A DNA stretch of 64,000 bases from Roseburia hominis A2-183 (GTDB taxonomy: Bacteria > Bacillota > Clostridia > Lachnospirales > Lachnospiraceae). The notes beneath the pieces were generated by a model, which was not told where the DNA came from, ran no database searches, and saw only the letters and a program-made list of their open reading frames with translations. Of the stretch, positions 42,797-58,274 are shown one piece after another. The first letter of the stretch is position 1; each line of letters starts with the position of its first letter. The DNA lies in assembly GCF_000225345.1 (NCBI RefSeq), contig NC_015977.1:2587501-2651500 (forward strand). The letters are read 5' to 3'. Both the position numbers and the translations under genes were made by a program.

Positions 42797-44299
42797 TTAG
42801 AACTGAAAATATATAAACTGTGCCGCATCATAATCCGGACCGTATTTTCCATACACGACCACAAGAAGAATGAGCAACAGGCACACCAGCCACCGGAACC
42901 ATATATTCTGTTCCTGCAAAAACACATCCACGCGTCTGCCCAGCCGATAACGTACCAGGTCAACCAACAACAGAATGAACAGTGCAAAAAACAACACATT
43001 TGCTTCAAACTGCTCCAGTCCCATTGTATATAACGTCCCGTTAAAAAGCGCCCACGGGTTCACTCTTGTTGCAATCCGGCTTATATATACACACGCCTGT
43101 CCCAGATTGTCTGCCCTGAAAAAAATCCATGCAAATGTGGTCAGCACAAATGTAAACGCAATCTGTGTCAGTTTAAAACTGATACAATCTGTTCGGACGT
43201 CAAAGATCTCCACGATCTTCTTTCTTACCGGGCGAAGCAGATCCCCGATGATCTGATAGAGTCCGTGCAGTCCACCCCAGATCACATACGTCCATGCTGC
43301 GCCGTGCCAGAGTCCGCTTGCGAGGAAGGTAAGCATCAGGTTGCAGTATTTTCTCACTTTTCCCTTCCGGTTTCCGCCAAGAGGAATATAGAGATAATCC
43401 CGGAACCAGGTGCTCAGCGAAATATGCCATCTTCTCCAGAAATCTTTGATCGATGTCGCAAAATACGGCGTATTAAAATTCTCCATCAATGTGAAGCCCA
43501 TCACCTGTGCAGCCCCGATCGCAATCAGGGAGTAACTTCCAAAGTCACAATAAATCTGAATTGCAAACGCCACCGCCCCGGTAACCAGTTCCGCACTCCC
43601 CAGGCTGTAATAATGGTCAAATGCATAGTCCGCCACAATGGCGATCCGGTCTGCCAGCACCATTTTTAAGAAAAATCCATACAACATGAGTATGAGTCCG
43701 TTGACAATCCGATGATATTCAAATGTCTTTTTATAAGGCACTTCCCGGATCTGTTTCAGCAGATTTCCCGACCGCTCGATCGGTCCTGCAACCAGCTGTG
43801 GGAAAAATGATACAAACAGCGCATAGCGAAGCGGATTTTTTTCTGCCGCAATCTCTTTCCGGTAGACATCCACCAGATATCCGAGCGCCTGAAAGGTATA
43901 GAAGGAAATTCCCACCGGGAGCAGAACCTCCAGGCTGCTGGTCAACGGTTTTTTCTGAAAATGCTCCAGCACCACATTCAGGTTTGTAAGGAAAAAGTCA
44001 AAATATTTGCAAAAAAACAAAATGCCGAGATTGGAAAGGAAACCAACCGCGACGACCAGCTTTCCTGCCACGCTCCAGCCTTTTTCCTCATGTGTACCGG
44101 TCCACTCTACAAGAAGTCCACACACATAGGTAATCAGCGTTGAGGCTCCGATCAGCATCGCATACGACGCATTCCATGACATGTAAAAATAATAGCTTGC
44201 CACCAAAAGCCAGAGATAGCGCACTTTCTTTGGAATGATCCAGTAAATCAGCACTACTGCCGGAAAAAATACGAGAAAGTCAATTGAATTAAACTGCAT
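42797..44299 (-). CDS. MBOAT-family O-acyltransferase (AlgI/DltB-like)
   Basis: A 500-residue membrane protein with 10-12 helices. Family landmarks are SIDFLVFFP at the N-terminus, QLVAGPIER in the middle, DFWRRWHISLSTWFRDYLYI and LASGLWHGAAWTYVIWGG, the latter with the catalytic His. It moves acetyl groups across the membrane for glycan acetylation. The ATG at 44299 follows GGGGAG and lies inside the 3' end of the GT11 gene (11-bp overlap). With the SGNH partner downstream and the fucosyltransferase upstream it implies that the fucosylated glycan is O-acetylated outside the cell. Confidence 0.93.
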   Translation of the reverse strand: MQFNSIDFLVFFPAVVLIYWIIPKKVRYLWLLVASYYFYMSWNASYAMLIGASTLITYVCGLLVEWTGTHEEKGWSVAGKLVVAVGFLSNLGILFFCKYFDFFLTNLNVVLEHFQKKPLTSSLEVLLPVGISFYTFQALGYLVDVYRKEIAAEKNPLRYALFVSFFPQLVAGPIERSGNLLKQIREVPYKKTFEYHRIVNGLILMLYGFFLKMVLADRIAIVADYAFDHYYSLGSAELVTGAVAFAIQIYCDFGSYSLIAIGAAQVMGFTLMENFNTPYFATSIKDFWRRWHISLSTWFRDYLYIPLGGNRKGKVRKYCNLMLTFLASGLWHGAAWTYVIWGGLHGLYQIIGDLLRPVRKKIVEIFDVRTDCISFKLTQIAFTFVLTTFAWIFFRADNLGQACVYISRIATRVNPWALFNGTLYTMGLEQFEANVLFFALFILLLVDLVRYRLGRRVDVFLQEQNIWFRWLVCLLLILLVVVYGKYGPDYDAAQFIYFQF

Positions 44300-45137
44300 C
44301 GATCTCCCCTTTCTGACATGCGCCGCCATCCAGTACAATCCAGTCAGGCAATGCCATCTGCTCTACCCCGTGAAACTTCGGAACAATGACAATCCTTCCC
44401 GGCAGCGTGTTCAGATACGCTGCCCATGTAGAATAGGTACTGTTGGAAATGATCTGATTCTGGCATGCAGACATCAGAAAGAATTCATCAATATCCGACA
44501 GTGCTTCCCCAAACTCCGCAATATAGCGCATTCTGGCTTCTCCGTCATCCAGACATTCTTTCGCCTTCGGAAGATCATTCGTAAACACAATAAACGTCAC
44601 ATCCGGTTTTTCCTTCTGCATCCGTGCAATCGCCTGCTGAAAATACGCACGGTTCGGGCCACCAAGATCCCCTCCACGCACATGTAGTGCACAAGTCGGC
44701 GTCTGTGTGAATTGCTGCATGAGTTCTCTTACCGCATCCGTCTGCTCATATGCCGGTGTAAACATTTCGCGCAGATCATCCAGATATTCTTCAAAATACC
44801 CGAGGCACTGCCAATAGCCATGAAGATACCTGCCCCGCCGGGCTGGTACAAACACCCGCGCATCCACAGCATACATATCCCGTTCCCGGATCACATGATA
44901 CCGGATATCGCGCCGCAGGCGCTTGTAGAGCTTCTGCCAGAATGTGCGGTTCGGAAAGGATTCTTTTTCATCATACACCACGCGGAAATGATCCAGCTCA
45001 TAATCACGCAAGGTCGAATTATCACACTCCGATATATCCAGCCTGAGCTTTTCCCCGCTCCGTTTTGCCGCAGCATAGCCACAGGCATAGTTGTACATCT
45101 GGTTGCCCATGCCATCGCCGATCTTAACCGTTACCAA
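44289..45137 (-). CDS. Alpha-1,2-fucosyltransferase (GT11)
   Basis: A 282-residue enzyme transferring fucose from GDP-L-fucose to galactose, by family. It starts VTVKIGDGMGNQMYNYACG, the standard GT11 opening, and carries LHVRGGD near residue 156, FIVFTNDLPKAKECL near 190 and ISNSTYSTWAAYL near 236. No ATG fits: the coding similarity begins at a TTG (45137) with GGAGG eight bases before it, so TTG is taken as the start and the length matches FutC-type enzymes. The MBOAT gene overlaps its 3' end. GT11 activity would give an H-antigen-like terminus on the surface glycan. Confidence 0.88.
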   Translation of the reverse strand: MVTVKIGDGMGNQMYNYACGYAAAKRSGEKLRLDISECDNSTLRDYELDHFRVVYDEKESFPNRTFWQKLYKRLRRDIRYHVIRERDMYAVDARVFVPARRGRYLHGYWQCLGYFEEYLDDLREMFTPAYEQTDAVRELMQQFTQTPTCALHVRGGDLGGPNRAYFQQAIARMQKEKPDVTFIVFTNDLPKAKECLDDGEARMRYIAEFGEALSDIDEFFLMSACQNQIISNSTYSTWAAYLNTLPGRIVIVPKFHGVEQMALPDWIVLDGGACQKGEIDAV

Positions 45138-45222
45138 ATCATGATCCTCCCTGTTTCTCCTGTGTTTCCACGCTTGCATTCTTCCTGTAAATTCCCACAA
45201 CATCCGCCACCGGCAGATTCTT

Positions 45223-46329
45223 CTATCTGCCAAGAATAATGTCACAGATACGATCCACCTGGTCAATCCGAAGATCTGCATACAACGGAAGGGTCAGTAC
45301 CTTTTTCGACAGATCCAGCGCTACCGGTGTATCTCCCATATCAAACATGCCCTTATAGCATTCAAACGTGTTCGTCAGCGGATAAAAATATTTTCTTGCG
45401 TAGATCTCGTTGACCTTTAACAGCTCATAGATCTCGTCCCGACTCTTTCCAAATTCCTCCGGTTCAAAGATTACCGGATAATATGCATAGTTAGGCTTCA
45501 CGTCCTTTTGCGGTGCAGAAATCTTTAATCCATTTACACCGGACAGTCTCTCATTGTAATGCTCTACAACTGCCTTTCTCTTTGCAAGTTCTCTGTCAAT
45601 ATGGCGCAGATTGCATAATCCCATTGCCGCCTGGAACTCGTTCATCTTGGCATTCGCACCGACATCCTTGATAAGTTCCTCATCCCAGATACCGAAATTC
45701 TTAATGCCGAACAGCTTTTCCCGCAGACCATTCTCACTGCTGTTAAAGCAGACAGCACCACCCTCGATTGTATTGAACACCTTGGTCGCGTGGAAGCTGA
45801 AAATGGAGGCATTTCCAAAGGTTGCCACTCCTCGTCCCTTATATTCCTCGCCAAAAGTATGTGCCGCATCATAGATGACTTTCAGATTATGCTTTTTCGC
45901 GATCGCCTCGATTGCCTCGACATCGCAGAGATGCCCGTATACATGTACCGGAATGATGGCACTGGTTTTCTCTGTGATGAGCGCCTCGATCTTATTTACG
46001 TCAATCGTGTAGTCCTCCGGATTCACATCACAGAACACAGGTGTCAGTCCATTGCGGACGATCGCGTGCGTGGTCGATGCAAACGTGAACGGTGTTGTGA
46101 TAACTTCTCCGGTAAGTCCCATTGCCTGAATCAGAAGTTCCAGTGCCATGTGCCCGTTGGAAAACAGCAGAATATTTCTCACTTTTAGATATTCTGCCAG
46201 TTCCTCCTCCAATCTGTTATGCTTCTCCCCCATATTTGTCAGCCAGTGGCTTTCAAAAATACTCTTTATCTCGTCCACATACTCATCCAGTTCAGGCATG
46301 GATGAACGTGTCACCAAAATCTTCTCCAT
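45223..46329 (-). CDS. DegT/DnrJ/EryC1/StrS-type sugar aminotransferase
   Basis: A 368-residue PLP enzyme of the nucleotide-sugar aminotransferase family. The PLP lysine is Lys183 in FSFHATKVFN, preceded by DAAHTFG (Asp154). The closest pattern is the QdtB/FdtB or VioA type, which makes 3- or 4-amino-dideoxysugars on dTDP. The partner dehydratase, isomerase and N-acyltransferase are not in the window, so the precursor must come from elsewhere. It has its own promoter (46386-46415) and is the first gene of the unit containing GT11, MBOAT and SGNH genes. Confidence 0.9.
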   Translation of the reverse strand: MEKILVTRSSMPELDEYVDEIKSIFESHWLTNMGEKHNRLEEELAEYLKVRNILLFSNGHMALELLIQAMGLTGEVITTPFTFASTTHAIVRNGLTPVFCDVNPEDYTIDVNKIEALITEKTSAIIPVHVYGHLCDVEAIEAIAKKHNLKVIYDAAHTFGEEYKGRGVATFGNASIFSFHATKVFNTIEGGAVCFNSSENGLREKLFGIKNFGIWDEELIKDVGANAKMNEFQAAMGLCNLRHIDRELAKRKAVVEHYNERLSGVNGLKISAPQKDVKPNYAYYPVIFEPEEFGKSRDEIYELLKVNEIYARKYFYPLTNTFECYKGMFDMGDTPVALDLSKKVLTLPLYADLRIDQVDRICDIILGR

Positions 46330-46385
46330 ATCTACTCCATTCTACCGGATTTTCTCCGGTTTTCTTTCATCTGTGAAACACAATC

Positions 46386-46415
46386 ATCATACTCCAAACA
46401 CCGTTGTTTTGTCAA
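46386..46415 (-). promoter_or_regulatory. Sigma-A promoter of the aminotransferase-GT11-MBOAT operon
   Basis: On the minus strand TTGACA (46415-46410), an 18-bp spacer and TATGAT (46391-46386) lie about 57 bp upstream of the ATG at 46329. Its -35 box is only 18 bp from the -35 box of the divergent promoter at 46434. Confidence 0.7.
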
Positions 46416-46433
46416 CGAAGTCCACTTTTTCCC

Positions 46434-46461
46434 TTGACATTGCACACGCAGGATTTATAAT
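46434..46461 (+). promoter_or_regulatory. Sigma-A promoter of the GT-D gene
   Basis: Consensus TTGACA (46434-46439), a 16-bp spacer and consensus TATAAT (46456-46461), 41 bp before the ATG at 46503. Back-to-back with the aminotransferase promoter. Confidence 0.75.
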
Positions 46462-46502
46462 AAAAATTATTGCGTATTGACCACTTTCTATAAGGAGATT
46501 TC

Positions 46503-47444
46503 ATGAAACAGAGGGTTCTCTATTTATACTACTATTTGAAGCACATTCATCATAAACTCCGCGCCAGACGCACCGGAAGTTACAACGTTCTCGGATCTTT
46601 TCTGGGAATTCCGGCTCCGACAGACGAAGAAGCCAATGAGCTGATCAAGGACTTTATCAAAAGCGGCAAGCCATTTGCAATCTGTCGCCTTGGCAGCGCT
46701 GAGTTTTCAGAGTTGCAGCTCTACGACGAGCATGTCCTCTTCCACACGAACCGTCTTGGTAAGAGTAATATGTTTGAAACGTTTCACCACAGCACAGAGG
46801 AAGTCGGCCGCTGGTCGTCTCTGATCAAACGTGATAATCAGGATATCGATGTGATGGCTTACTTTGACGATCATCCTGCCGAAGAATACATTGTACGCAC
46901 CAGCTGTCCAAAAGATATGAAGCTGATCCGTCTCGGTCAGTTGGAACCATTGGCTTACAAAGAGCCCTGGACACTGGCTCTTGCCGGCAAAAAGGTTCTT
47001 CTCGTCAACCCATTCGTAGATACCATGTTGGAGCAGTACCCCCACATGGATCAGATCTTCCCGGATCGTATGGTTCTTCCACCTGACATCACATTCCGCA
47101 CATTCAAAGCCGTGTGGTTCACCGGACGCGGAGACGATTTTGACACATGGTTTGATGCTTTAAATTATATGTATGAGGAGATCATGAAGATCGATTTTGA
47201 TATTGCCCTGCTCAGCTGCAGTGCTTTCGGCTATAATCTGGCTCCGATGTTAAAACGCGCCGGCAAACAGGCCATTCAGATGGGGGGATCCATGCAGCTG
47301 CTCTTCGGGATCTGGGGATCGCGTTGGGATGACTACCCTCCCTACCTCCCTCTCAAAAATGAATATTGGGTTCGTCCACCAAAAGCAGAAGCTCCTAAGG
47401 ACAAAAAAGGACTGGAAGAACTGGACAATGCCTGCTACTGGTAA
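46503..47444 (+). CDS. GT-D-type glycosyltransferase (DUF1792-like)
   Basis: A 313-residue soluble protein. CRLGSAEFSE (61-70) occupies the place of the GT-D signature, where DUF1792 enzymes have a metal-binding DxE; here the first acidic residue is Ser65 while Glu67 remains. The C-terminal motif LLSCSAFGYNLAPMLKRAG followed by MGGSMQLLFGIWGSRW is characteristic of the group. Family members glucosylate or otherwise extend serine-rich adhesins and other glycans. AAGGAG precedes the ATG; consensus promoter upstream and a terminator downstream make it monocistronic. The acceptor is unknown. Confidence 0.75.
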   Translation: MKQRVLYLYYYLKHIHHKLRARRTGSYNVLGSFLGIPAPTDEEANELIKDFIKSGKPFAICRLGSAEFSELQLYDEHVLFHTNRLGKSNMFETFHHSTEEVGRWSSLIKRDNQDIDVMAYFDDHPAEEYIVRTSCPKDMKLIRLGQLEPLAYKEPWTLALAGKKVLLVNPFVDTMLEQYPHMDQIFPDRMVLPPDITFRTFKAVWFTGRGDDFDTWFDALNYMYEEIMKIDFDIALLSCSAFGYNLAPMLKRAGKQAIQMGGSMQLLFGIWGSRWDDYPPYLPLKNEYWVRPPKAEAPKDKKGLEELDNACYW

Positions 47445-47470
47445 CAGATAAGAAATCAATGGCAAAGATC

Positions 47471-47505
47471 AAAAAAAAGACACGCCCAAATGGACGTGTC
47501 TTTTT
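47471..47505. terminator. Bidirectional terminator
   Basis: GACACGCCC (47479-47487), loop AAAT, GGACGTGTC (47492-47500) with A8 on the left and T5 on the right, between the convergent GT-D and DUF3048 genes. Confidence 0.85.
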
Positions 47506-47519
47506 CTGTCACCTATGTT

Positions 47520-48617
47520 TTATTCAATTACCAGACTCTTCCAGTCATCCACCGGAACAAGTGCTATATACGTCTTACCGGTATTTAACTTGATCTCATT
47601 GCCATCTGCATCATAATAGCGTGTCGGGGAAGTCATGCTCGTCTTCTTCCAGGTAACCGGAATCGCCTCGCCATTCGTCACATAATATCCACCACCGGAT
47701 GTAATCACATCAAAAATCATATAACCATGTTCGTCATACTGTGTAAATCCTGCACTCTGAATCAGCAGATTCTTAAAGCAGAGCTGTGCATTATCATTGC
47801 CCGGATCCACATGCGCTTTGCCATACTCGGAATAATAATACAACTGATCATCTGCATCGTACTCCAGATAGGATCCATTATGCGGGAATGGAAGATCCAC
47901 GGTCTCTGCTGTGATCGCGTCTGCTGCATCCGAAAGATCCACCGGGTTGTCCTCATTTGCAAACTGATAGTGCTCACCCTCATAATAAGATGTATACTCT
48001 TTGGACACATCCGAATTACTGAAGTTCTTGTCCATATCACCGGAAACGATATACTCCGTATATTCTCTTGACTTTCCGTTGTTCACACGGGAAAATGTCC
48101 CACTGAAATGGTCGGAACACGGCTCTGCCAGATATTCATCAATATAGAATGGTCCTCCATCATGACAAATGATCGCATTCCATTCTGCTGCCAGAATAAT
48201 ATTCGTCGGGCGGACGCTTCGGATGCTTCCGATCTGATCCACGCTCTCGTAATCTTTAAACAGTGCCATAAATCTGGTAATACGACCATTCATTGTACTG
48301 TTCATCATCTCATATACGACATCTGCGTGCGATAATCCATAATGCGGTAACGCAATAGACTCATTATCCACCATGACCGCAATCGGACGCTGATCCTTCA
48401 AGGAATCATCGATCAGTTCATTCGTAAGTTCGCTCCGGTATTTGCCTCCCGGAAGCACTTCTTCCTCAGACTCAGTCTCTGCCTGTTCGGTCGTCTCTGC
48501 AATAACCTGCTCAGTCGATGTGTCCGCGCTGCTCTCCTGAGCATCCTTTCCACCACATGCCATAAGGTTGATAGAAACCGCAAACAATGTCAATAAGGTG
48601 ACTGCTCTTTTCTTCAC
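47520..48617 (-). CDS. DUF3048 (YerB-like) lipoprotein
   Basis: A 365-residue predicted lipoprotein. The signal peptide ends in LMAC; a Glu/Thr/Ser-rich linker (about 25-55) leads into the DUF3048 domain, with RPIAVMVDN, GLSHADVVYE, GSIRSVRPTN, CHDGGP and a C-terminal domain with GGYYVTNGEAIPVTW. The start is a GTG at 48617, spaced correctly from GAGAGG. The family is widespread in Firmicutes (B. subtilis YerB); its biochemical function is not established. It sits outside the glycan operons, after a terminator. Confidence 0.85.
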   Translation of the reverse strand: MKKRAVTLLTLFAVSINLMACGGKDAQESSADTSTEQVIAETTEQAETESEEEVLPGGKYRSELTNELIDDSLKDQRPIAVMVDNESIALPHYGLSHADVVYEMMNSTMNGRITRFMALFKDYESVDQIGSIRSVRPTNIILAAEWNAIICHDGGPFYIDEYLAEPCSDHFSGTFSRVNNGKSREYTEYIVSGDMDKNFSNSDVSKEYTSYYEGEHYQFANEDNPVDLSDAADAITAETVDLPFPHNGSYLEYDADDQLYYYSEYGKAHVDPGNDNAQLCFKNLLIQSAGFTQYDEHGYMIFDVITSGGGYYVTNGEAIPVTWKKTSMTSPTRYYDADGNEIKLNTGKTYIALVPVDDWKSLVIE

Positions 48618-48742
48618 AATGTATACCTCTCAATATCCTATTAATTAAGGGCTTTTCTAATTTCAAACTGCGCCCTTATTTTTATCATACCATACTTCAC
48701 CCGCGTATAAAAGTGTTTTTTGTGCACATTTCCTAAAACAGG

Positions 48743-49687
48743 CTATTTTATCCGTTTCACTTCGTCCATATTGCTCTCTGCGACAATATAATGCGGACGT
48801 TTTTTTACTTCGAGGTATGTTTTGGCAATGTATTGCCCCATAATTCCCATACAAAAAAGCTGTACACCGCCAATAAATGTAATGATACACGCTGTGGATG
48901 CCCATCCGGTCACGGGATCTCCAAAGACAAGCTTTCGTATAATAATAAAAATCACCGCCACAAAGGACAACACTGTCATGAACATTCCAAACCAGGATGC
49001 AAATGCCAATGGTGCCTGTGAAAAATTGATAATCCCATCAATCGCATACTTAAACAGCTTCCAGAAATTCCATTTCGTCTCGCCTGCCACCCGGTTCACA
49101 TTCTCATACGGCAGCCAGCATGTCCGAAATCCGATCCAGCCAAAAATCCCCTTGGAAAAACGGTTATACTCTCCCATCTCAACGATCGCATCTACCATCT
49201 CACGCCGCATCAGCCGAAAATCCCGTGCCCCATCCACGATATCCGCATCTGACACGCGGTTGATCATCCGGTAAAACAACCGGGCAAACCAGCTCCGAAT
49301 CGGCGGCTCTCCTTTTCTGGTCACACGGCAGGTTGCTACACTGTCATATTCACCTGTCAGAAGCTTGTCTAACATCTCCGGAAGAAGCGCCGGCGGATCC
49401 TGCATATCAGCATCCATCACTGCAACGTAGTCTCCGGTGACATTGCAAAATCCTGCATACATTGCCGCTTCCTTTCCGAAATTTCTGGAAAAGGAAAGGT
49501 ACTGCACACAGCCATCCTGCCCTGCCAGTTCCTTTAAGACAGCCAATGTCCGGTCTCTCGATCCGTCATTGATAAACACAAACTCATGCTCGCATGGCAT
49601 GGTTTCCAACACGTTCTTCGTCTCCCGATAAAAAATCGGCAATGCTTCCTCCTCATTATAGCAGGGGACTATCAGTGAAATCTTCAT
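48743..49687 (-). CDS. GtrB-like polyprenyl-phosphate sugar synthase (GT2)
   Basis: A 314-residue GT2 enzyme with VPCYNEEEA at the start, NDGSRDRTL near 40, MDADMQDPP as DxD near 93 and two C-terminal helices (AVIFIIIRKLVF; GVQLFCMGIMGQYIAKTY). It is related to the other GtrB-like proteins of the window and should make undecaprenyl-phosphate-linked hexose. No GtrA or polytopic transferase is adjacent, so its partner is elsewhere. The ATG at 49687 is preceded by AAGGAGA. Confidence 0.88.
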   Translation of the reverse strand: MKISLIVPCYNEEEALPIFYRETKNVLETMPCEHEFVFINDGSRDRTLAVLKELAGQDGCVQYLSFSRNFGKEAAMYAGFCNVTGDYVAVMDADMQDPPALLPEMLDKLLTGEYDSVATCRVTRKGEPPIRSWFARLFYRMINRVSDADIVDGARDFRLMRREMVDAIVEMGEYNRFSKGIFGWIGFRTCWLPYENVNRVAGETKWNFWKLFKYAIDGIINFSQAPLAFASWFGMFMTVLSFVAVIFIIIRKLVFGDPVTGWASTACIITFIGGVQLFCMGIMGQYIAKTYLEVKKRPHYIVAESNMDEVKRIK

Positions 49688-49799: not shown

Positions 49800-50051
49800 T
49801 TATAAGACGTAATCAGCTCCCAGTGCCACATAACAGGTCTTCAACCCTTTATGCTTCTTCTCCACATAATCCTGCCCGATCAGAAACCTTATGAAATCCT
49901 TCACATCCTGCTTTTCACACTTCACAGAAAATTCCTGCTCCAATGCCTCCCTGATCTCAGTCTCATTCATTGCATGATTACGATCCCACAAAATATTAAG
50001 GATCTGATTTGCAGTCTCCGGAAGTGTGTCTACCATTACGCATTCTATCAT
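49800..50051 (-). CDS. Small BlaI/CopY-like winged-helix protein
   Basis: An 83-residue protein with a winged-helix pattern: ANQILNILWDRNHAMNETEIREAL, then QDVKDFIRFLIGQDYVEKK. This resembles the DNA-binding half of BlaI/CopY repressors, but the C-terminal dimerisation helix is lacking. The start at 50051 was chosen because GGAAGAG stands five bases before it; the longer frame begins within that ribosome site. No M56 sensor is adjacent. It lies upstream of and on the other side of a 24-bp hairpin from the secreted-peptide gene. Role unknown. Confidence 0.6.
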   Translation of the reverse strand: MIECVMVDTLPETANQILNILWDRNHAMNETEIREALEQEFSVKCEKQDVKDFIRFLIGQDYVEKKHKGLKTCYVALGADYVL

Positions 50052-50106
50052 TTTATCTCTTCCTTTCATATGTGTGAAATTAGTTTATTTTACTCCCTTC
50101 GACAGG

Positions 50107-50162
50107 AAAAGACCATTCGATATGACGTAAATTTAAACTTACGTCATATCGAATGGTCTTTT
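50107..50162. terminator. Perfect 24-bp stem-loop with flanking A4/T4
   Basis: The sequence from 50107 to 50130 is the exact reverse complement of 50139-50162, with loop ATTTAAAC; A4 and T4 close the two sides. On the minus strand it would end transcription coming from the RNPP-like regulator gene (50350-51261), after passing antisense through the peptide gene. It could alternatively be a binding site for a dimeric regulator between the small winged-helix gene and the peptide gene. Confidence 0.7.
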
Positions 50163-50215
50163 GTCAAAACCTCTCCTAATATAGCAAAAAAAGCAACAGA
50201 AAAGGAGATTTGTTT

Positions 50216-50353
50216 ATGAAAAAAGCATTTATTATCACCACACTTGCACTCATCTTGTCCGCAGCCGCAGTACCAGGTATCGTCAATTCTTTTGGGGTAT
50301 CATCCGGCGTGACTTCATGCTTTATTTTCGAAGATATGGCTGAGGGATACTAA
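50216..50353 (+). CDS. 45-residue secreted peptide precursor, candidate pheromone
   Basis: A 45-codon gene with AAAAGGAGAT seven bases before the ATG. The first 20 residues (MKKAFIITTLALILSAAAVP) form a Sec signal peptide or small-pheromone leader: two lysines, a hydrophobic core and a small-residue cleavage region. The rest ends in GVTSCFIFEDMAEGY. Its stop codon overlaps the stop of the convergent HTH-TPR regulator gene by 3 bp (50350-50353). A short secreted peptide encoded beside an HTH-TPR regulator is the layout of PlcR/PapR and Rgg/SHP systems, where the processed C-terminal peptide is reimported and binds the regulator. Coding status is supported by the ribosome site and peptide architecture; function is inference. 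Confidence 0.65.
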   Translation: MKKAFIITTLALILSAAAVPGIVNSFGVSSGVTSCFIFEDMAEGY

Positions 50354-51261
50354 AATTCAATACCATAATTATTTTTACAGTAGTCAGCCGCTCTGCATGC
50401 TCTCTCATTCTGCTTCATCGTTTCAAACAGAACGACTGACTGCCTGAAATATTTGACTGCTTCACCCTTTTGACCAAGTTCTGCTAATGCACAGGCTTTA
50501 TTAAATAATAACCGAGGAAGAATAACCAAATTGCCATACTTAATGCAAAATTCTACTCCTTCTTCTGCAATATCATTTATTTCAATATATCTTTGTACTC
50601 TAGCCAGCCAGTTACTCAAATTATATAAAATGACAGGATATTTTGCCGTTTTCTGTTTACTGTCCATCATCTGCTCTTCCATATAATCCTTTAACCAGTA
50701 TTCTAGTTTCAATGCTTCCTCAATATTATTTTCTCTGGCATATTTCCTTGCTATTGCATTGATTATCATAATCTCATCAAATGTGAGCAGATTTTCCTTC
50801 ATCGGTGTCACACCGTCAAACTGAGGCAAAGTAACATGGATTGCCTTCATGAGCATTTCCATGATTTGATCCGGTTCTGCCCCTTTGTTCCACATCAATT
50901 CAGCCTTTGCAAAGTATAAATATTGTCTTTCCAAGTGTGATGTTTTCTTTGTCAGACCTTCTACTTTCTGAATCTGCTTTACCAATTCCTCAAAATTCCC
51001 ATCCGCAATGTTTCTTACCATTTCCTGGACACACTCATAGAGTTCCATCTCCTCTTTGCTCACGAAGATATTAAACACACTGTTCTCCATACCCAGGCGT
51101 TCCATTAACTTATCCAGTATATATCTGCCAGGTGTCTGCGCTCCATTTTCAATGCGCGACAGTGTTGCAGATGTACAAATTCCAAAGCTTACATCCTCCT
51201 GCGTGTAGCCCTTACGAAGCCTGATCTCTCTGATATAATCACCAATCACATATGTTGCCAT
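50350..51261 (-). CDS. RNPP-like regulator: XRE HTH plus TPR-like helical domain
   Basis: A 303-residue cytoplasmic protein. Residues 5-60 form a Cro/C1-type helix-turn-helix (IREIRLRKGYTQEDVSFGI, then ATLSRIENG). Residues 70-303 are helical and TPR-like, with repeats ending in LPRLLFNKACALAELGQKGEAVKYF. This is the architecture of PlcR, Rgg and related peptide-responsive regulators. The start is ATG 51261 with GGGTGG eight bases before; a GTG four codons earlier is less likely. A TATAAT-like -10 lies at 51323-51328. It overlaps the end of the convergent peptide gene, the strongest hint at its ligand. Confidence 0.85.
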   Translation of the reverse strand: MATYVIGDYIREIRLRKGYTQEDVSFGICTSATLSRIENGAQTPGRYILDKLMERLGMENSVFNIFVSKEEMELYECVQEMVRNIADGNFEELVKQIQKVEGLTKKTSHLERQYLYFAKAELMWNKGAEPDQIMEMLMKAIHVTLPQFDGVTPMKENLLTFDEIMIINAIARKYARENNIEEALKLEYWLKDYMEEQMMDSKQKTAKYPVILYNLSNWLARVQRYIEINDIAEEGVEFCIKYGNLVILPRLLFNKACALAELGQKGEAVKYFRQSVVLFETMKQNERACRAADYCKNNYGIEF

Positions 51262-51512: not shown

Positions 51513-52180
51513 CTACATTTTAGACTGGAACTCTTCAATAGAATCCGCGCGTGCTGCAAGCTTAAGCCACGCCGCCAGAGTATCTTCCCGCTTTTCAGCT
51601 GCAATACACTCCCTTAATTCTTCCGGAACGCTTCCGAGTTCAGCTAATAACGCCACTATGTTCTGCGCTATTTTTGAAGCCGCGAGTGACTCTGCCATTG
51701 GCTTTGCCAGCGTTTCCGCCATCTCTTTTGCTCTCCGCTCCGCTTCCGAATGGCTATATTCCTCCATCGTCATATAGCCCGCCTCCAATTTTCGATCACG
51801 TTTTAAATATTCCACCCTCCGGTGGATCAGTTGAATCTCTTCATCGTTATGCATATTGGCAACTTCTTCGGTGCTTTGTTTCAAATATTCAAACAGGTGC
51901 AGCAACTGGGCAGATCCCTGCCAAAATCATTCTGCATCTCAACGTCATAGCTGACCTCCTCAGCATCCAGCGCATACACATCAAAGCGCACCGATTTGAA
52001 ATCGCTGTCGAGGAAGAGCGTATGCTCTGCGTGCGATCTGACCGCAGTGATCTTACGGTTCAAAGCGATCTCCAGCACATTCCGACAGATTTCCTCATCC
52101 TGTAGCGCCGCTGCAAACAAATATGCATTTGTCAAGTTCAATGTCTGAAAACATTCTCCCATACATGGGTACCTCCTCAT
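51513..52180 (-). pseudogene. Decayed PD-(D/E)XK nuclease-family transposase/Rpn-like gene
   Basis: Two fragments in different frames are remains of one gene. The N-terminal part (51881-52180) encodes LTNAYLFAAALQDEEICRNVLEIAL and RFDVYALDAEEVSYDVEMQNDF, which includes the D-(x)n-ExQ of the PD-(D/E)XK nuclease family common as multicopy genes in Lachnospiraceae. The C-terminal part (51513-51905) holds EEIQLIHRRVEYLKRDRKLE and a coiled Ala/Glu-rich tail. Roughly 100-150 central residues are missing and the frame changes near 51900, so an internal deletion inactivated it. Confidence 0.7.
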
Positions 52181-52322: not shown

Positions 52323-54878
52323 CTACTCCTCACAATAAATAGTATTTTCAAACTCATCGTCTCCTGCAAATTCTTTTTTCATAATATCATAATAAGGACT
52401 GTTAAAGTCCATTCGTATGATGGATTGTTTTCCTATTCTGCATAGCATTTGATAGAAAACTTTCATAGCCTTATAAATGTAGGAATCATTAGGTGAATAA
52501 ACCTCGCTCAGCATATCTCTCATTTCATTCAACTCCTTATTACTAAGTTTTACATGAAACTTTTCTACATATCTAACCTTTTCCAGCACATAAGAATCAA
52601 CAGAAAACAGTTTTGCTTTTTGAATATAATACTCCTTACTTTTGATCAGATCTAGCATCAACTTTTCGCCTTTTTCAAACAATTCCTTTGCTGTCTGGCT
52701 GTCGGATTGTACATTAGCATATTTAAGATAATTCCTTGCAATTGCATGCTGTATCTTAAAAGATTTCGGTTGTATCTTTTGGGATTTTTTCAAATGGCTC
52801 AGTGCTTTTGCATAATTATTCTCTCCCTGTTCATATAAGCCCAGTTGAAGCCAATAATAGCTGACCTTTGTATATTCCTGCTTAATCCCATAAAACAAAG
52901 TACCCAATTCCGATTTTTCCGACTTAAACTTTTCTCTTAACCTGGCCTCATTTAAAAGTGCTTGGAATACATTCATCCACACATCCTGTCTTCCTTCATA
53001 CACATAAGTCGACATATAAAGCAACAATTCCCGGATTGCAGGAAAAATTTTATCCCTGTTACTTTTCAAAACCGCATCCTGAAGCAGAGAGTTTCTTAAA
53101 GCAATTCCCTGATCATCATATTTAATATAATCTATCACCTTCAGGTTACTGATCCCGCCCTCCTCCGTCAGACGAATTACCCCCTGATAACGTCCTATAA
53201 ATAATTCGATCGGATAATATTCAATATCCAGATTATTAAATATTGCCACTTCCAGCAGCAATTTCATTTCTATCGGCGGAAGATCCGTTACAAACTTCAT
53301 TTCCTTATTTAATTTTCGCCGCATTTCCTTGCCATAAGTCAGATATACGATCAGATTCACAACACTCTGCTTCCTCTGAATCTCCCGATACAGCTCATTT
53401 GAATCATGGTCGAATTCGTACAAATCTCCCAGTGAATCCTTCTCTTCCAGTGTTTGTGCTATAATGGGCGCATCCTCTTTCCTGATTTTGTCTTTACATT
53501 CTAAATCACAAAAACAGTTCCCTTCCAGATAATATTTCTTTCTTGTATGATAATACGTTCTGGACGCACACAAAAAAACAATTTCTTTTTCTTCATAACT
53601 GTCTCTCAAAAATCTCTCAATGGTCTTATAATAAAAACTTGCATTATCTATAAGGATTGCATATTTTTCATAGCTACTTTCCATAATATAGTTGCGAAGT
53701 ACACTTCTCTCTAAAAATCTTCCCTTATATTCAAGTACCTCATATCCCATACTATGCAAATAATAGCCCAGCTGTTTTAAAAGTGTGCTTTTCCCCGAAA
53801 AAGAGCTTCCATACAGGCAAAAGCATTTTAGTGGATCTTTTTGACTCAAAATAATATCCAGACTCTTTTTCGCACTGTCTAACATCGTATTTTCAAATGT
53901 CCATCTGTCAAAAACATCCTGCCAGGTGCTATAATATCCCTGATATATATTACTCTCATATGGATTTTTAAAAATTTTTATATCATCCTGAAGCCGATAG
54001 ATCATAGCCCGGTTAAGTTCTAATCTGGCGCGCTCTGCTCTCTCCGGTGCATATTCCAGCTCCGATGCAAATTTTAAAAATTTCTCCGTAGTCCACGGAA
54101 TAATGGTCGCCCCCAACTCTGCCGCTTTTTGCTCCAACGCCAATTTGGGATACGGTTCTATAAAGAAAATACGGCTTTTCTTTCTCTTTATCTGCATATT
54201 TTCATAAAGCTGTAAATAGTACTCAATATCCGGTTCATCCAGTGAAGCTCCGATAAATATGACATCATTTGCAGAATATATTTCATTTGTAAATTCTACA
54301 AGACCGATATTCACTTTGCTTCCGATCAGATCATTATATTCCTTTTTACTGAATATGTAGCCATCCCCCGGTTTTCTTACACTGCCGTGTAATTTAATGA
54401 GCTCCATGTTTTCACTTTTGCGGGGAATATCTTTACTTGATGAAATACAACTGTACTCTTTGTCATTTTCTTCATATATATTTTCAACCAGATCATCAAT
54501 ATTTACCGTATAAATTCTCCTCCATGGATAATCCACCAGCAAATTGTGAAATCCAGTCTCATTTGGCAAGGCTCCCTTAAGGCGTCTTGTAAGATACTCT
54601 TCTCTTTTTGCTTTATTGTCCTTATCTAATGCATCAATACAGGAACACAATTCACGAAGATTATATTTTTCAACATCCTTATAATCTGCCTCACTGATTT
54701 TGTCTTTTACAAACTCCAATCGTAATTCATCAGCAAGCTCCGAGCCTGTGGGAAGCTTCCCTTTTTTGCAGAGGGCTTCCCGAGAAAAACCAGCACCCAA
54801 AAACAGCACTGGCATATTATTCTCCATGCAGTCCTTCAGATCTTTTATCGTAGTCTCTTCCACCATTGTTTTATCCAT
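52323..54878 (-). CDS. SIR2-STAND-TPR protein, Avs5-like predicted phage-defence NADase
   Basis: An 851-residue protein. Residues 20-290 form a SIR2-like domain with GAGFS (28-32), TVNIDD (124-129), LHGS (163-166) and IGASLDEPDIEYY (209-221), motifs of SIR2_2 NADases in bacterial defence. A P-loop follows: Walker A GSSFSGKST (357-365) and a Walker B-like YAILIDN (406-412). The C-terminal third is helical with TPR-like LGLYEQGENNYAKALSHLKKS near 705. The order effector, STAND NTPase, repeat sensor matches the Avs5 type. The usual mechanism in such systems is NAD depletion on phage recognition; activity here is predicted. A GTG three codons earlier is an alternative start. Strongly AT-rich compared with the glycan genes. 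Confidence 0.85.
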   Translation of the reverse strand: MDKTMVEETTIKDLKDCMENNMPVLFLGAGFSREALCKKGKLPTGSELADELRLEFVKDKISEADYKDVEKYNLRELCSCIDALDKDNKAKREEYLTRRLKGALPNETGFHNLLVDYPWRRIYTVNIDDLVENIYEENDKEYSCISSSKDIPRKSENMELIKLHGSVRKPGDGYIFSKKEYNDLIGSKVNIGLVEFTNEIYSANDVIFIGASLDEPDIEYYLQLYENMQIKRKKSRIFFIEPYPKLALEQKAAELGATIIPWTTEKFLKFASELEYAPERAERARLELNRAMIYRLQDDIKIFKNPYESNIYQGYYSTWQDVFDRWTFENTMLDSAKKSLDIILSQKDPLKCFCLYGSSFSGKSTLLKQLGYYLHSMGYEVLEYKGRFLERSVLRNYIMESSYEKYAILIDNASFYYKTIERFLRDSYEEKEIVFLCASRTYYHTRKKYYLEGNCFCDLECKDKIRKEDAPIIAQTLEEKDSLGDLYEFDHDSNELYREIQRKQSVVNLIVYLTYGKEMRRKLNKEMKFVTDLPPIEMKLLLEVAIFNNLDIEYYPIELFIGRYQGVIRLTEEGGISNLKVIDYIKYDDQGIALRNSLLQDAVLKSNRDKIFPAIRELLLYMSTYVYEGRQDVWMNVFQALLNEARLREKFKSEKSELGTLFYGIKQEYTKVSYYWLQLGLYEQGENNYAKALSHLKKSQKIQPKSFKIQHAIARNYLKYANVQSDSQTAKELFEKGEKLMLDLIKSKEYYIQKAKLFSVDSYVLEKVRYVEKFHVKLSNKELNEMRDMLSEVYSPNDSYIYKAMKVFYQMLCRIGKQSIIRMDFNSPYYDIMKKEFAGDDEFENTIYCEE

Positions 54879-54924
54879 CTTTTCCACTACCTTCTTTTCA
54901 ACATTATCGTCCTGTTTTCCATGT

Positions 54925-55908: not shown

Positions 55909-57257
55909 TTACTTTCTGCATTCTGCCGGCAGCTTGTCTGACCAAGGGAGCAGATCTTCACAGAAACTTACATCATGGTCTTCCATGTGCTTTGGTATCT
56001 CAGTTAAAAGATATTCGAAGTAATTGTAAGGCTTTAGGTTGTTTGACTTTGCTGTTTCTGCAATGCTGTAGATGATGGCACTAGCTTCTGCACCAGCTAT
56101 GGTGTCAATCATAACCCATTTTTTCTTGCCCACACAGAACGGTCGGATTGCCTGTTCCACGGAATTATTATCCATCGGTACTTCTCCATCTTCAAGGAAG
56201 GTTTTTAGATACTTTTCCTGATTGAGAGAATAGGTAAGTCCTTTTGCAGTTTTACTCTTAGGCGTTACAGACAATAGATTCTATTTGATCCACGTAAAAT
56301 AGGCATCAACCAGCGGTTTTACTGTTAGCTGGCAATGTTTTAGACGTTCTTCTATAGTCATTGATGCAAGTTTGTTTTCCTCGCGATAGATTGCCTGGAT
56401 CTGCTTTAATGCCAGATATGCGAGCGAACTTTTTCGCCTGTCCTTTGGCAAAGCCTTAACAGCTTCGTCGAATCGGCGCCTTGCATGGCTCCAGCAGCCG
56501 GCAATCCGTAGGTCTTCACGCTCTTTTTCAATGGTGTGATAGGCCTGATATCCATCCGTTACGCAGACACCTTTGAAATCTTTTAGAAATGCTCTTGGAT
56601 GGCTTGCATTACGAGAGGGTTGGTACTCATACAAAACGATCTGCTTATCCAGATACATCTTGTCGGTTCGGTACACCCACATGTAATGCTTACTTCCCTC
56701 CGTTCGGTTCTCTTTTGAAACCAAAACCGGGGTTTCATCTGCCTGAAGTACATGATAATCATATATTCTTTCATGCAGATAGTCGTAAAAGACGGAAAGA
56801 TATCGTTCGGCACAAAGTATGGTCCAGTGTGCCATGTCGGCACGGTCAATGTTCAGCCCCATTCGCCGAATTCACAGATAAGTTCTTCCTTTGTCATCCG
56901 GTGTTCTACAGGAATAACCGGAAGTCCTTGGATATCGGTAGCACGCTTTCCCTGGACTTTCCTGCCTCTGGGTTTTGTTGTTTCATTTTCTTCATACTCG
57001 GCAAGGCTTTCAACTGCCTCTGCTTCGTTGAAGTAAATGATATTGCCATCCACCTCTAAGAAACTGATCTGATTTTCAGTTTCTAGTTTCTCGGAGGATC
57101 TGCCAAAACGGTTGTGGTTCAAAACAGCGACCTGTTCCAGCAATAGCTGAAGCTTCTGATCAATATCGCGAAGCTGTGACTGCTGGGCAAGAAACAGCTG
57201 AACAAGCGTAGCCTTATCGAAATTATTCAGTTGTTCTTCTGTGTATTCCATCGCCAT
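55909..57257 (-). pseudogene. tnpC: IS66 transposase tnpC, inactivated
   Basis: The N-terminal part (56853-57257) has the IS66 coiled-coil start MAMEYTEEQLNNFDKATLVQL. It stops at ELICEFGE, where the frame changes and the next fragment opens at GLNIDRADMAHWTI; about 100-130 residues of the usual zinc-finger region are missing. The central fragment carries the catalytic Asp in LQADETPVLV and Asp in VTDGYQAY. A TAG stop at 56281-56283 interrupts the same frame, after which the C-terminal part (55909 on) supplies the catalytic Glu in NSVEQAIRPF and the IS66 C-terminal domain. A deletion, a frameshift and a nonsense mutation together make it nonfunctional. Confidence 0.9.
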
Positions 57258-57538
57258 AATGAACCTCATTTCTACAAGATTCATTATAGCGCATATGGTC
57301 TTAAATAGTGAATACCTCTCATTTCAGAGTTCGTCATAATGCCTATGGTTGTTTGACCCTACAAGCGGCTTAGACCCAGCATGATATCGAATCCTTTTGA
57401 AATGCTGGATATAAATTACAACTACATAAAAGCACAATAGCTCGCTTACAATACTGTTTTTGGGACTTGATGATGATGAAAAAACGGTAATTACACGACC
57501 ATTTTTCATGGCAAAAAATTCTACCTTTTGCACAATCA

Positions 57539-57916
57539 TCATGCCATATGTTCTGGAGGCTTGATTTCCCGAACTGCTTTCTTGGGAGCAATGGTCAGGC
57601 CTTCCCTCAGCCAGCGGAATTGTTGAATGGTTATAGCCCGGACTTCTGCTTCATTTCTAGGCCATACAAATTTCCCCTGCTCAAGGCGTTTGTATAAAAG
57701 CAGAAAACCATCTTTCTCCCAAACCAAGCCTTTGATGCGGTCCGACTTGCGACCACAGAAAAGATAGAGTGTATCTGGGACAAATGGACTGTTATCTGTC
57801 TTCGCATCAATGATTGATGCCAGAGTATCTATTCCAGATCTTAGATCCGTGTATCCACAAACAATGTAAACTTGTTTGAAGCACGTAGCATCATTCAACA
57901 TGGGCAAGCACCCCAA
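57539..57916 (-). CDS. tnpB: IS66 accessory protein TnpB
   Basis: A 125-residue IS66 Orf2 protein with the family pattern VYIVCGYTDLRSGIDTLASII, LYLFCGRKSDRIKGLVWEKDGFLLLYKRLEQGKFVWP and QFRWLREGLTI. Required with tnpA and tnpC for transposition. The reading frame is intact. It overlaps the 3' end of tnpA by 26 bp, as usual. Confidence 0.93.
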   Translation of the reverse strand: MGCLPMLNDATCFKQVYIVCGYTDLRSGIDTLASIIDAKTDNSPFVPDTLYLFCGRKSDRIKGLVWEKDGFLLLYKRLEQGKFVWPRNEAEVRAITIQQFRWLREGLTIAPKKAVREIKPPEHMA

Positions 57917-58274
57917 GTACCTTAGTCAGCAGCGTCTCTGAAGTTGCTTCCGTTACGCGAAGCGTCACTCCATGGGCATATAACTCAAGGCAAGAATTAT
58001 TATTCGAAGATACAGGCGAAATACCTGCCGGCTCTTCCATTAATGCTAACGGAACAGGAACCACTGCATGCTCTAACGTCTCTGCAGGCAATGCATCAAG
58101 GCAGGCAATTCTGACTTGCCTCATTCGATAATAATAGTTTGCCTTTGTGATAGAATTAAGTTTGCACCATTCATCAACGGACATGCCAGCAGGGCGATTC
58201 TTACAATCGTGAATCATTTGGACCCACTCGTTAAGCCGACAACTACGTGCAACCAATGCTGTTTGAGATTTCAT
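57891..58274 (-). CDS. tnpA: IS66 accessory protein TnpA
   Basis: A 127-residue IS66 Orf1 protein with an N-terminal HTH-like region (WVQMIHDCKNRPAGMSVDEW then NSITKANYYYRMRQVR) and a C-terminal beta-rich end (LELYAHGVTLRVTE). Intact frame. It is the first gene of the element. Confidence 0.9.
   Translation of the reverse strand: MKSQTALVARSCRLNEWVQMIHDCKNRPAGMSVDEWCKLNSITKANYYYRMRQVRIACLDALPAETLEHAVVPVPLALMEEPAGISPVSSNNNSCLELYAHGVTLRVTEATSETLLTKVLGVLAHVE

Follow-up and report, generated by a model that had tools for sequence, protein, structure and literature searches.

In PlcR-type systems, the pheromone gene runs in the same direction as the receptor gene, and in the ComR/ComS system of streptococci, where comS is not known to be convergent with comR, a palindromic activator site lies just before the -10 box of the peptide gene and of the target promoters. 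In Bacillales systems, including PlcR, the pheromone is encoded immediately downstream of the receptor (PMC9765709), the PlcR box reads TATGNAN4TNCATA (PMC3519770), and the SHP peptides of Rgg/SHP systems are described as not recognised as Sec-exported (PMC10075063). Here, we describe a small propeptide gene and a convergent helix-turn-helix and tetratricopeptide (HTH-TPR) regulator gene in a 64,000-nucleotide stretch of Roseburia hominis A2-183 (contig NC_015977.1, positions 2,587,501 to 2,651,500; hereafter the window), the source genome being one contig of 3,592,125 bases. The genus Roseburia is abundant in the gut and produces butyrate. Our results make it highly probable that the two genes form an autoinducing RNPP-type (PlcR-like) peptide signalling circuit. 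If so, inexpensive synthetic peptides would allow direct tests of cell-density signalling in Roseburia, the operator would provide a ready reporter, and the variety of peptide C-termini would predict which strains respond to one another.

The receptor and peptide genes beside known systems

The preliminary description had proposed an RNPP-like regulator, and this was borne out. Indeed, Pfam HTH_3, TPR_2 and RNPP_C all score above cut-off in the protein, its length lies inside the 250-500 amino acid range of HTH and TPR RRNPP receptors, and its structure model is helical. PlcR is its top structure both by sequence and by fold (Foldseek and VIA), ahead of ComR and Rgg2, whose structures also match (best E 2.3e-5 and 5.4e-5, respectively), and no Rgg-specific model occurs among its Pfam and NCBIfam matches. 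Like PlcR of the Bacillus cereus group, it is an HTH and five-TPR receptor with the same fold over the whole length, and its N168 and N214 align opposite N159 and N201, the conserved peptide-groove asparagines of PlcR. As in PlcR/PapR, a small propeptide is encoded next to the 3′ end of the receptor gene, and there is a palindromic, here putative, operator; in contrast, the Roseburia peptide gene is convergent with overlapping stops, and TATG and CATA are separated in its palindrome by 20 bp and not by 8. In the group III Rgg/SHP systems of streptococci, too, the peptide gene converges on the regulator gene and overlaps its 3′ end (PMC13361665); from these systems the Roseburia pair differs by a signal-like leader, a peptide of 43-45 residues (49-52 in the genus g76) and a receptor fold ranking nearer PlcR than Rgg. 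ComR/ComS shares with it the palindrome just ahead of the peptide-gene -10 box but differs in receptor sequence and operator.

The RRNPP_detector candidates likewise place a TPR receptor of 250-500 amino acids beside a small secreted propeptide (PMC10075063); the main text of that paper does not contain the word Lachnospiraceae, and an earlier computational listing of this pair may stand in its supplementary tables. Among the papers searched, none linked RRNPP with Lachnospiraceae, and the only one with both Roseburia and RRNPP has them in unrelated places. The accessible text of PMC12700828 and PMC10518010 contains neither 'Roseburia' nor 'Lachno', and that of a comparative genomics study of Roseburia (PMC7478625) contains none of 'quorum', 'pheromone' or 'signaling peptide'.

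The small gene proved to be as first read, with 45 codons, a good ribosome binding site and a signal-like N-terminus, and its stop overlaps that of the convergent XRE-TPR regulator gene by 4 bp (50350-50353). Chance does not account for this: counting the window's own locus, seven of the eight genus loci share the 4-bp overlap, and the remaining one has 31 bp. The propeptide comprises a charged and hydrophobic N-terminal leader, a spacer and the C-terminal segment GVTSCFIFEDMAEGY, a candidate from its sequence for the segment holding the pheromone. Rfam gave no match at the locus at the gathering threshold. The features are collected in Table 1.

Table 1. Features of the peptide-receptor locus (positions within the window).
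Feature	Position	Strand	Details	Basis
Family 2 glycosyltransferase gene	48743-49687	-	Behind the winged-helix gene	Syntenic in G020, G071
Winged-helix protein gene	49800-50051	-	83 amino acids, Penicillinase_R-like; directly under the second promoter	Pfam; syntenic in G020, G071
-10 box, divergent promoter	50087-50092	-	TAAAAT, 20 bp outside the other operator arm	1 mismatch
Palindromic operator (putative)	50113-50156	.	Arms CCATTCGATATGACGTAA (50113-50130) and TTACGTCATATCGAATGG (50139-50156)	Sequence comparison
-10 box, peptide promoter	50177-50182	+	TAATAT, 20 bp outside the operator arm	2 mismatches to TATAAT; geometry conserved
Ribosome binding site, propeptide gene	50202-50207	+	AAGGAG	Sequence
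Propeptide gene	50216-50353	+	45 amino acids, MKKAFIITTLALILSAAAVPGIVNSFGVSSGVTSCFIFEDMAEGY	ATG at 50216, stop TAA 50351-50353
HTH-TPR receptor/regulator gene	50350-51261	-	303 amino acids, PlcR-like	Pfam, model, structure comparison

Conservation of the pair and the peptide family

When 61 other genomes of the genus were searched (regulator counted at E 1e-30 or better), the regulator was found in 8, seven at 46-64% identity and one (G005) at 30%. All seven of the former carry, in the same place, a convergent peptide open reading frame (ORF) of 43-45 amino acids with an MKR or MKK leader and a ribosome site, their C-termini including SCFIFPDLREGY, PCFILSDSAETL, AQYIFGDKAGGY and PCYYFEDENDAV, and G005 has no convergent peptide ORF at this place. 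Among 397 genomes sampled from the family, ten others have a regulator relative at 29-41% identity: the peptide is present beside those of G448 and G136, a weaker candidate of 40 amino acids stands in G172 behind a perfect palindrome, an ORF of 18 amino acids replaces the peptide in G442 and G127 (MLYKSISFYDFLEIIWDC and MIFNSIIFFNFLEIMWDC), and no peptide ORF was seen at the regulator 3′ end in G261, G231, G450, G141 and G207. Nor does a genome of another family (G050, regulator at 31%) show a peptide at this place. Six regulators, two of them already seen, occur in five of the six genomes of g76, the genus of G448, and a peptide of 49-52 residues accompanies five of these six (three of the four newly found). 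The expected conservation beside orthologous regulators was thus observed at 46-64% identity and in a second genus. Some relatives of both peptide and regulator carry Roseburia names in their sources, and a contig search with a single query protein gave one poor match (27%). As a separate observation, the 18-residue ORFs (L056/L108 and L057/L109), which adjoin the 3′ end of regulators about 30% identical to that of the window, are SHP-like, with strong ribosome sites and a common FLEI[IM]WDC end.

A full-length match to the peptide profile occurs once per genome, at the regulator, in all eight regulator-bearing genus genomes; the 12 other profile rows (E 0.009-0.084) cover the profile from position 1 only as far as 18-33 and lie at larger open frames. 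The peptide looks to be under purifying selection in the only two pairs close enough for comparison, where NG86 estimates of nonsynonymous (dN) and synonymous (dS) substitution gave dN 0.046 and dS 0.16, and dN 0.154 and dS 1.05, ratios well below 1, in contrast to the neutral value named beforehand as counting against the peptide; these estimates are rough because the ORFs are short. A profile search of 5.8 billion proteins returned 96 related peptides (E up to 1) among 129 candidates, one cluster being listed with 1000 contigs. The leader is near-fixed and residues 29-40 are variable (0.28 versus 1.07 bits in 34 sequences of 43 amino acids, chosen in part by their GGY end, which is therefore invariant by construction). 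Note that the family sequences are 90% cluster representatives, which inflates their apparent diversity. In one member, P0139, two C-terminal signal segments apparently stand in tandem, and tandem duplication has been reported for other RRNPPA propeptides (PMC11343458). Another, P0123, is a protein of 62 amino acids with an unrelated N-terminus joined to a C-terminus of the family, either a rearranged allele or an assembly artefact.

Bacteriocin-type peptides, too, can combine a constant leader with a variable mature portion, and the R. inulinivorans family member P0184 is automatically named 'Bacteriocin' by its source. The peptide might then act as a small bacteriocin or on membranes, with a regulator that controls the locus without sensing the peptide. 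We consider this very unlikely, since the peptide lies, in the 8 genus genomes, nowhere but beside the 3′ end of an RNPP-type receptor gene, the asparagines of the groove are retained, and no immunity or export gene recurs on the divergent side (surveyed by eye on that side only, not on the far side of the regulator). A genuine RNPP-type peptide-receptor pair is the likely reading.

The palindrome and its two putative promoters

In all eight genus loci the palindrome separates the peptide gene from the divergent gene, one arm in G064 having 4 mismatches, and a -10-like hexamer (at most 2 mismatches) lies 20 bp from the arm in 15 of 16 arms and 18 bp in the other. The pair, its conservation, its receptor family and the palindrome with this fixed spacing can be read directly from the sequences; the palindrome is presumably the operator of the regulator. 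In 8 genomes, a half-site with a spaced -10 box was found at 15 distinct sites, 11 of them at the locus and 4 elsewhere, and the reversed pattern at none; over 62 congeneric genomes the sole further match was in G024 (58% complete), and the reversed control matched once. Since the pattern was derived from these loci, its informative part lies in the 53 of 54 other genomes that do not have it and in the four outside sites; the combination thus appears nearly confined to regulator-bearing genomes. The spacing count left out 10 of 16 outside matches (2-3 mismatches), nine of them with sequence: six of the nine lie over open frames of at least 120 codons, one of which (L087) has a -10 box with 2 mismatches, and L085, L088 and L089 lie outside such frames with a -10 box at 19-20 bp (1-2 mismatches). 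In the five unlinked half-sites the second arm is missing (at least 8 of 18 mismatches) and the -10 spacing is nearly kept. Outside half-sites precede genes for a Hint-domain protein (G020 and G071), a PP2C phosphatase and the regulator itself (G064), as well as genes of unknown role. Ahead of the Hint-domain genes (L063 and L081) the operator half-site is exact and followed by a -10 box; the Hint-domain Pfam scores lie one just below and one just above cut-off, and the protein is possibly a competition effector.

A terminator scan finds in the palindrome a stem of 20 bp, with T tracts on either strand, as would a bidirectional transcription terminator, which would leave the pair without the proposed shared switch. 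This is most unlikely: the palindrome stands upstream of two divergent genes with conserved -10 boxes outside both arms, single half-sites without a second arm occur elsewhere at nearly the same -10 spacing (one of them ahead of the G064 regulator gene), and half-site plus -10 is nearly restricted to genomes that carry the regulator.

As an operator, the palindrome would serve a circuit in which we infer export, cleavage, import, binding, activation rather than repression, and output, the export and re-import steps being modelled on PlcR, Rgg and ComR. The small gene would yield the 45-residue propeptide, its leader would take it out of the cell, and a short C-terminal piece (within GVTSCFIFEDMAEGY), the presumed autoinducer, would be cut free and accumulate outside. 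An oligopeptide permease would carry this peptide back in, where it would bind the TPR groove of the regulator; the genome holds three SBP_bac_5 genes, which might serve such import. The peptide-loaded regulator would then bind the palindrome, occupying the -35 position, and activate two back-to-back promoters, one giving positive feedback on the peptide gene and the other driving the winged-helix gene and, perhaps, the glycosyltransferase gene that follows. Within the RNPP group, PlcR and NprR are activated by their peptides whereas Rap and PrgX are inhibited (PMC3601957), and a peptide-receptor pair in which the peptide is an inhibitor, or works in the cytoplasm and is never exported, is an unlikely but conceivable alternative. 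Activation fits better because the operator covers the -35 position and a promoter scan demanding a -35 of 4 of 6 listed neither -10 box; in addition, the closest structure is the activator PlcR. As to export, for which RRNPP propeptides use Sec or PptAB, weak profile matches of the leader alone are located at larger open frames, where a Sec signal might also occur. A quorum-sensing activator circuit is, as judged from sequence comparison, a well-supported prediction.

Several observations nevertheless weigh against this circuit. The preliminary description asked whether a small ORF always sits at the regulator 3′ end, which holds for the seven congeneric orthologues at 46-64% identity but becomes patchy below 38%: six of nine regulators at 29-36% identity are without a peptide at this place, and the three with one are the two 18-residue ORFs and the weak 40-residue candidate. 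Two of 14 regulators at 38% identity or more also have no peptide. The G034 orthologue of the regulator (L035/L060) has one in-frame TAA, its peptide ORF being open and its palindrome present despite the broken frame. The palindrome scores as a terminator in both directions, and the presence of the motif pattern in 8 genomes, given its derivation from the same loci, is by construction. Without the -10 box and with up to 3 mismatches, the motif has 16 matches outside the locus versus 14 reversed, hardly above background. Finally, at up to 3 mismatches the R. hominis genome shows no operator beyond the palindrome, so that its target set rests on one site.

Divergent genes and possible output

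Two targets had been suggested, of which the winged-helix gene shares the putative operator. The other, a SIR2 gene, was rejected: no half-site is found in 420 bp around and upstream of its start, the best having 6 of 18 mismatches. The winged-helix start is more likely at 50051 (83 amino acids, GGAAGAG ahead; two orthologues also have 83) than at 50069, and the glycosyltransferase gene is possibly co-transcribed with it. The domain scan took in the window genes and most first divergent genes, the genes behind these in other species being named by eye. In the window, G020 and G071, the winged-helix gene is followed by genes for a family 2 glycosyltransferase and a DUF3048 lipoprotein; in G002 the divergent side holds an FAD oxidoreductase gene followed by glycosyltransferase and MBOAT-like genes, in G064 an unknown gene followed by a glycosylphosphotransferase gene, in G034 a NERD-domain gene, and in G006 and G080 a gene that is TIR-like by eye, without a Pfam match. 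A surface-glycan output is thus possible, as a trend and not as a rule.

Receptor and peptide clusters with equal longest-contig size coincided 5 times versus 0.48 expected under shifts, a pairing drawn from 120 listed of 460 regulators and suggestive only. We tentatively propose, as a possibility short of even chances, a pherotype-type language in Roseburia and relatives, in which one receptor lineage and a near-fixed export leader would go with dozens of C-terminal signals, one palindromic switch would run its own signal and a swappable neighbour locus (surface-glycan genes in many cases, in others a gene for a Hint-domain protein or PP2C phosphatase), and kin density would set cell-surface and competition genes. 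The five tentative pairs agree with such a language, with receptors 58-81% identical and five different peptide C-termini. In the largest cluster of listed regulator relatives (39 of 72, mean identity 97.8%), few TPR sites vary, mostly in outer helices, and one receptor, P0119, equals one peptide, P0204, in longest-contig size. Since these clustered receptors represent a single type and do not pair with the whole range of peptides, their outer-helix variability tells neither way, and it was dropped as evidence against co-diversification.

Around the pair, positions 42797-49687 (-) hold a cluster of surface-glycan type (MBOAT, family 11 and family 2 glycosyltransferases, DegT aminotransferase and DUF3048 lipoprotein). 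The SIR2 gene at 52323-54887 (-) encodes a defence-like SIR2_2 and nSTAND NTPase5 protein of 854 amino acids, with no link to the operator. Two overlapping ORFs in different frames at 51513-52180 (-), neither with a Pfam match, look like one broken gene, which we take to be of the Rpn/PD-(D/E)XK type, and a large gene split over several frames at 55909-58274 (-) presumably represents, by eye, the remains of an IS66-like element.
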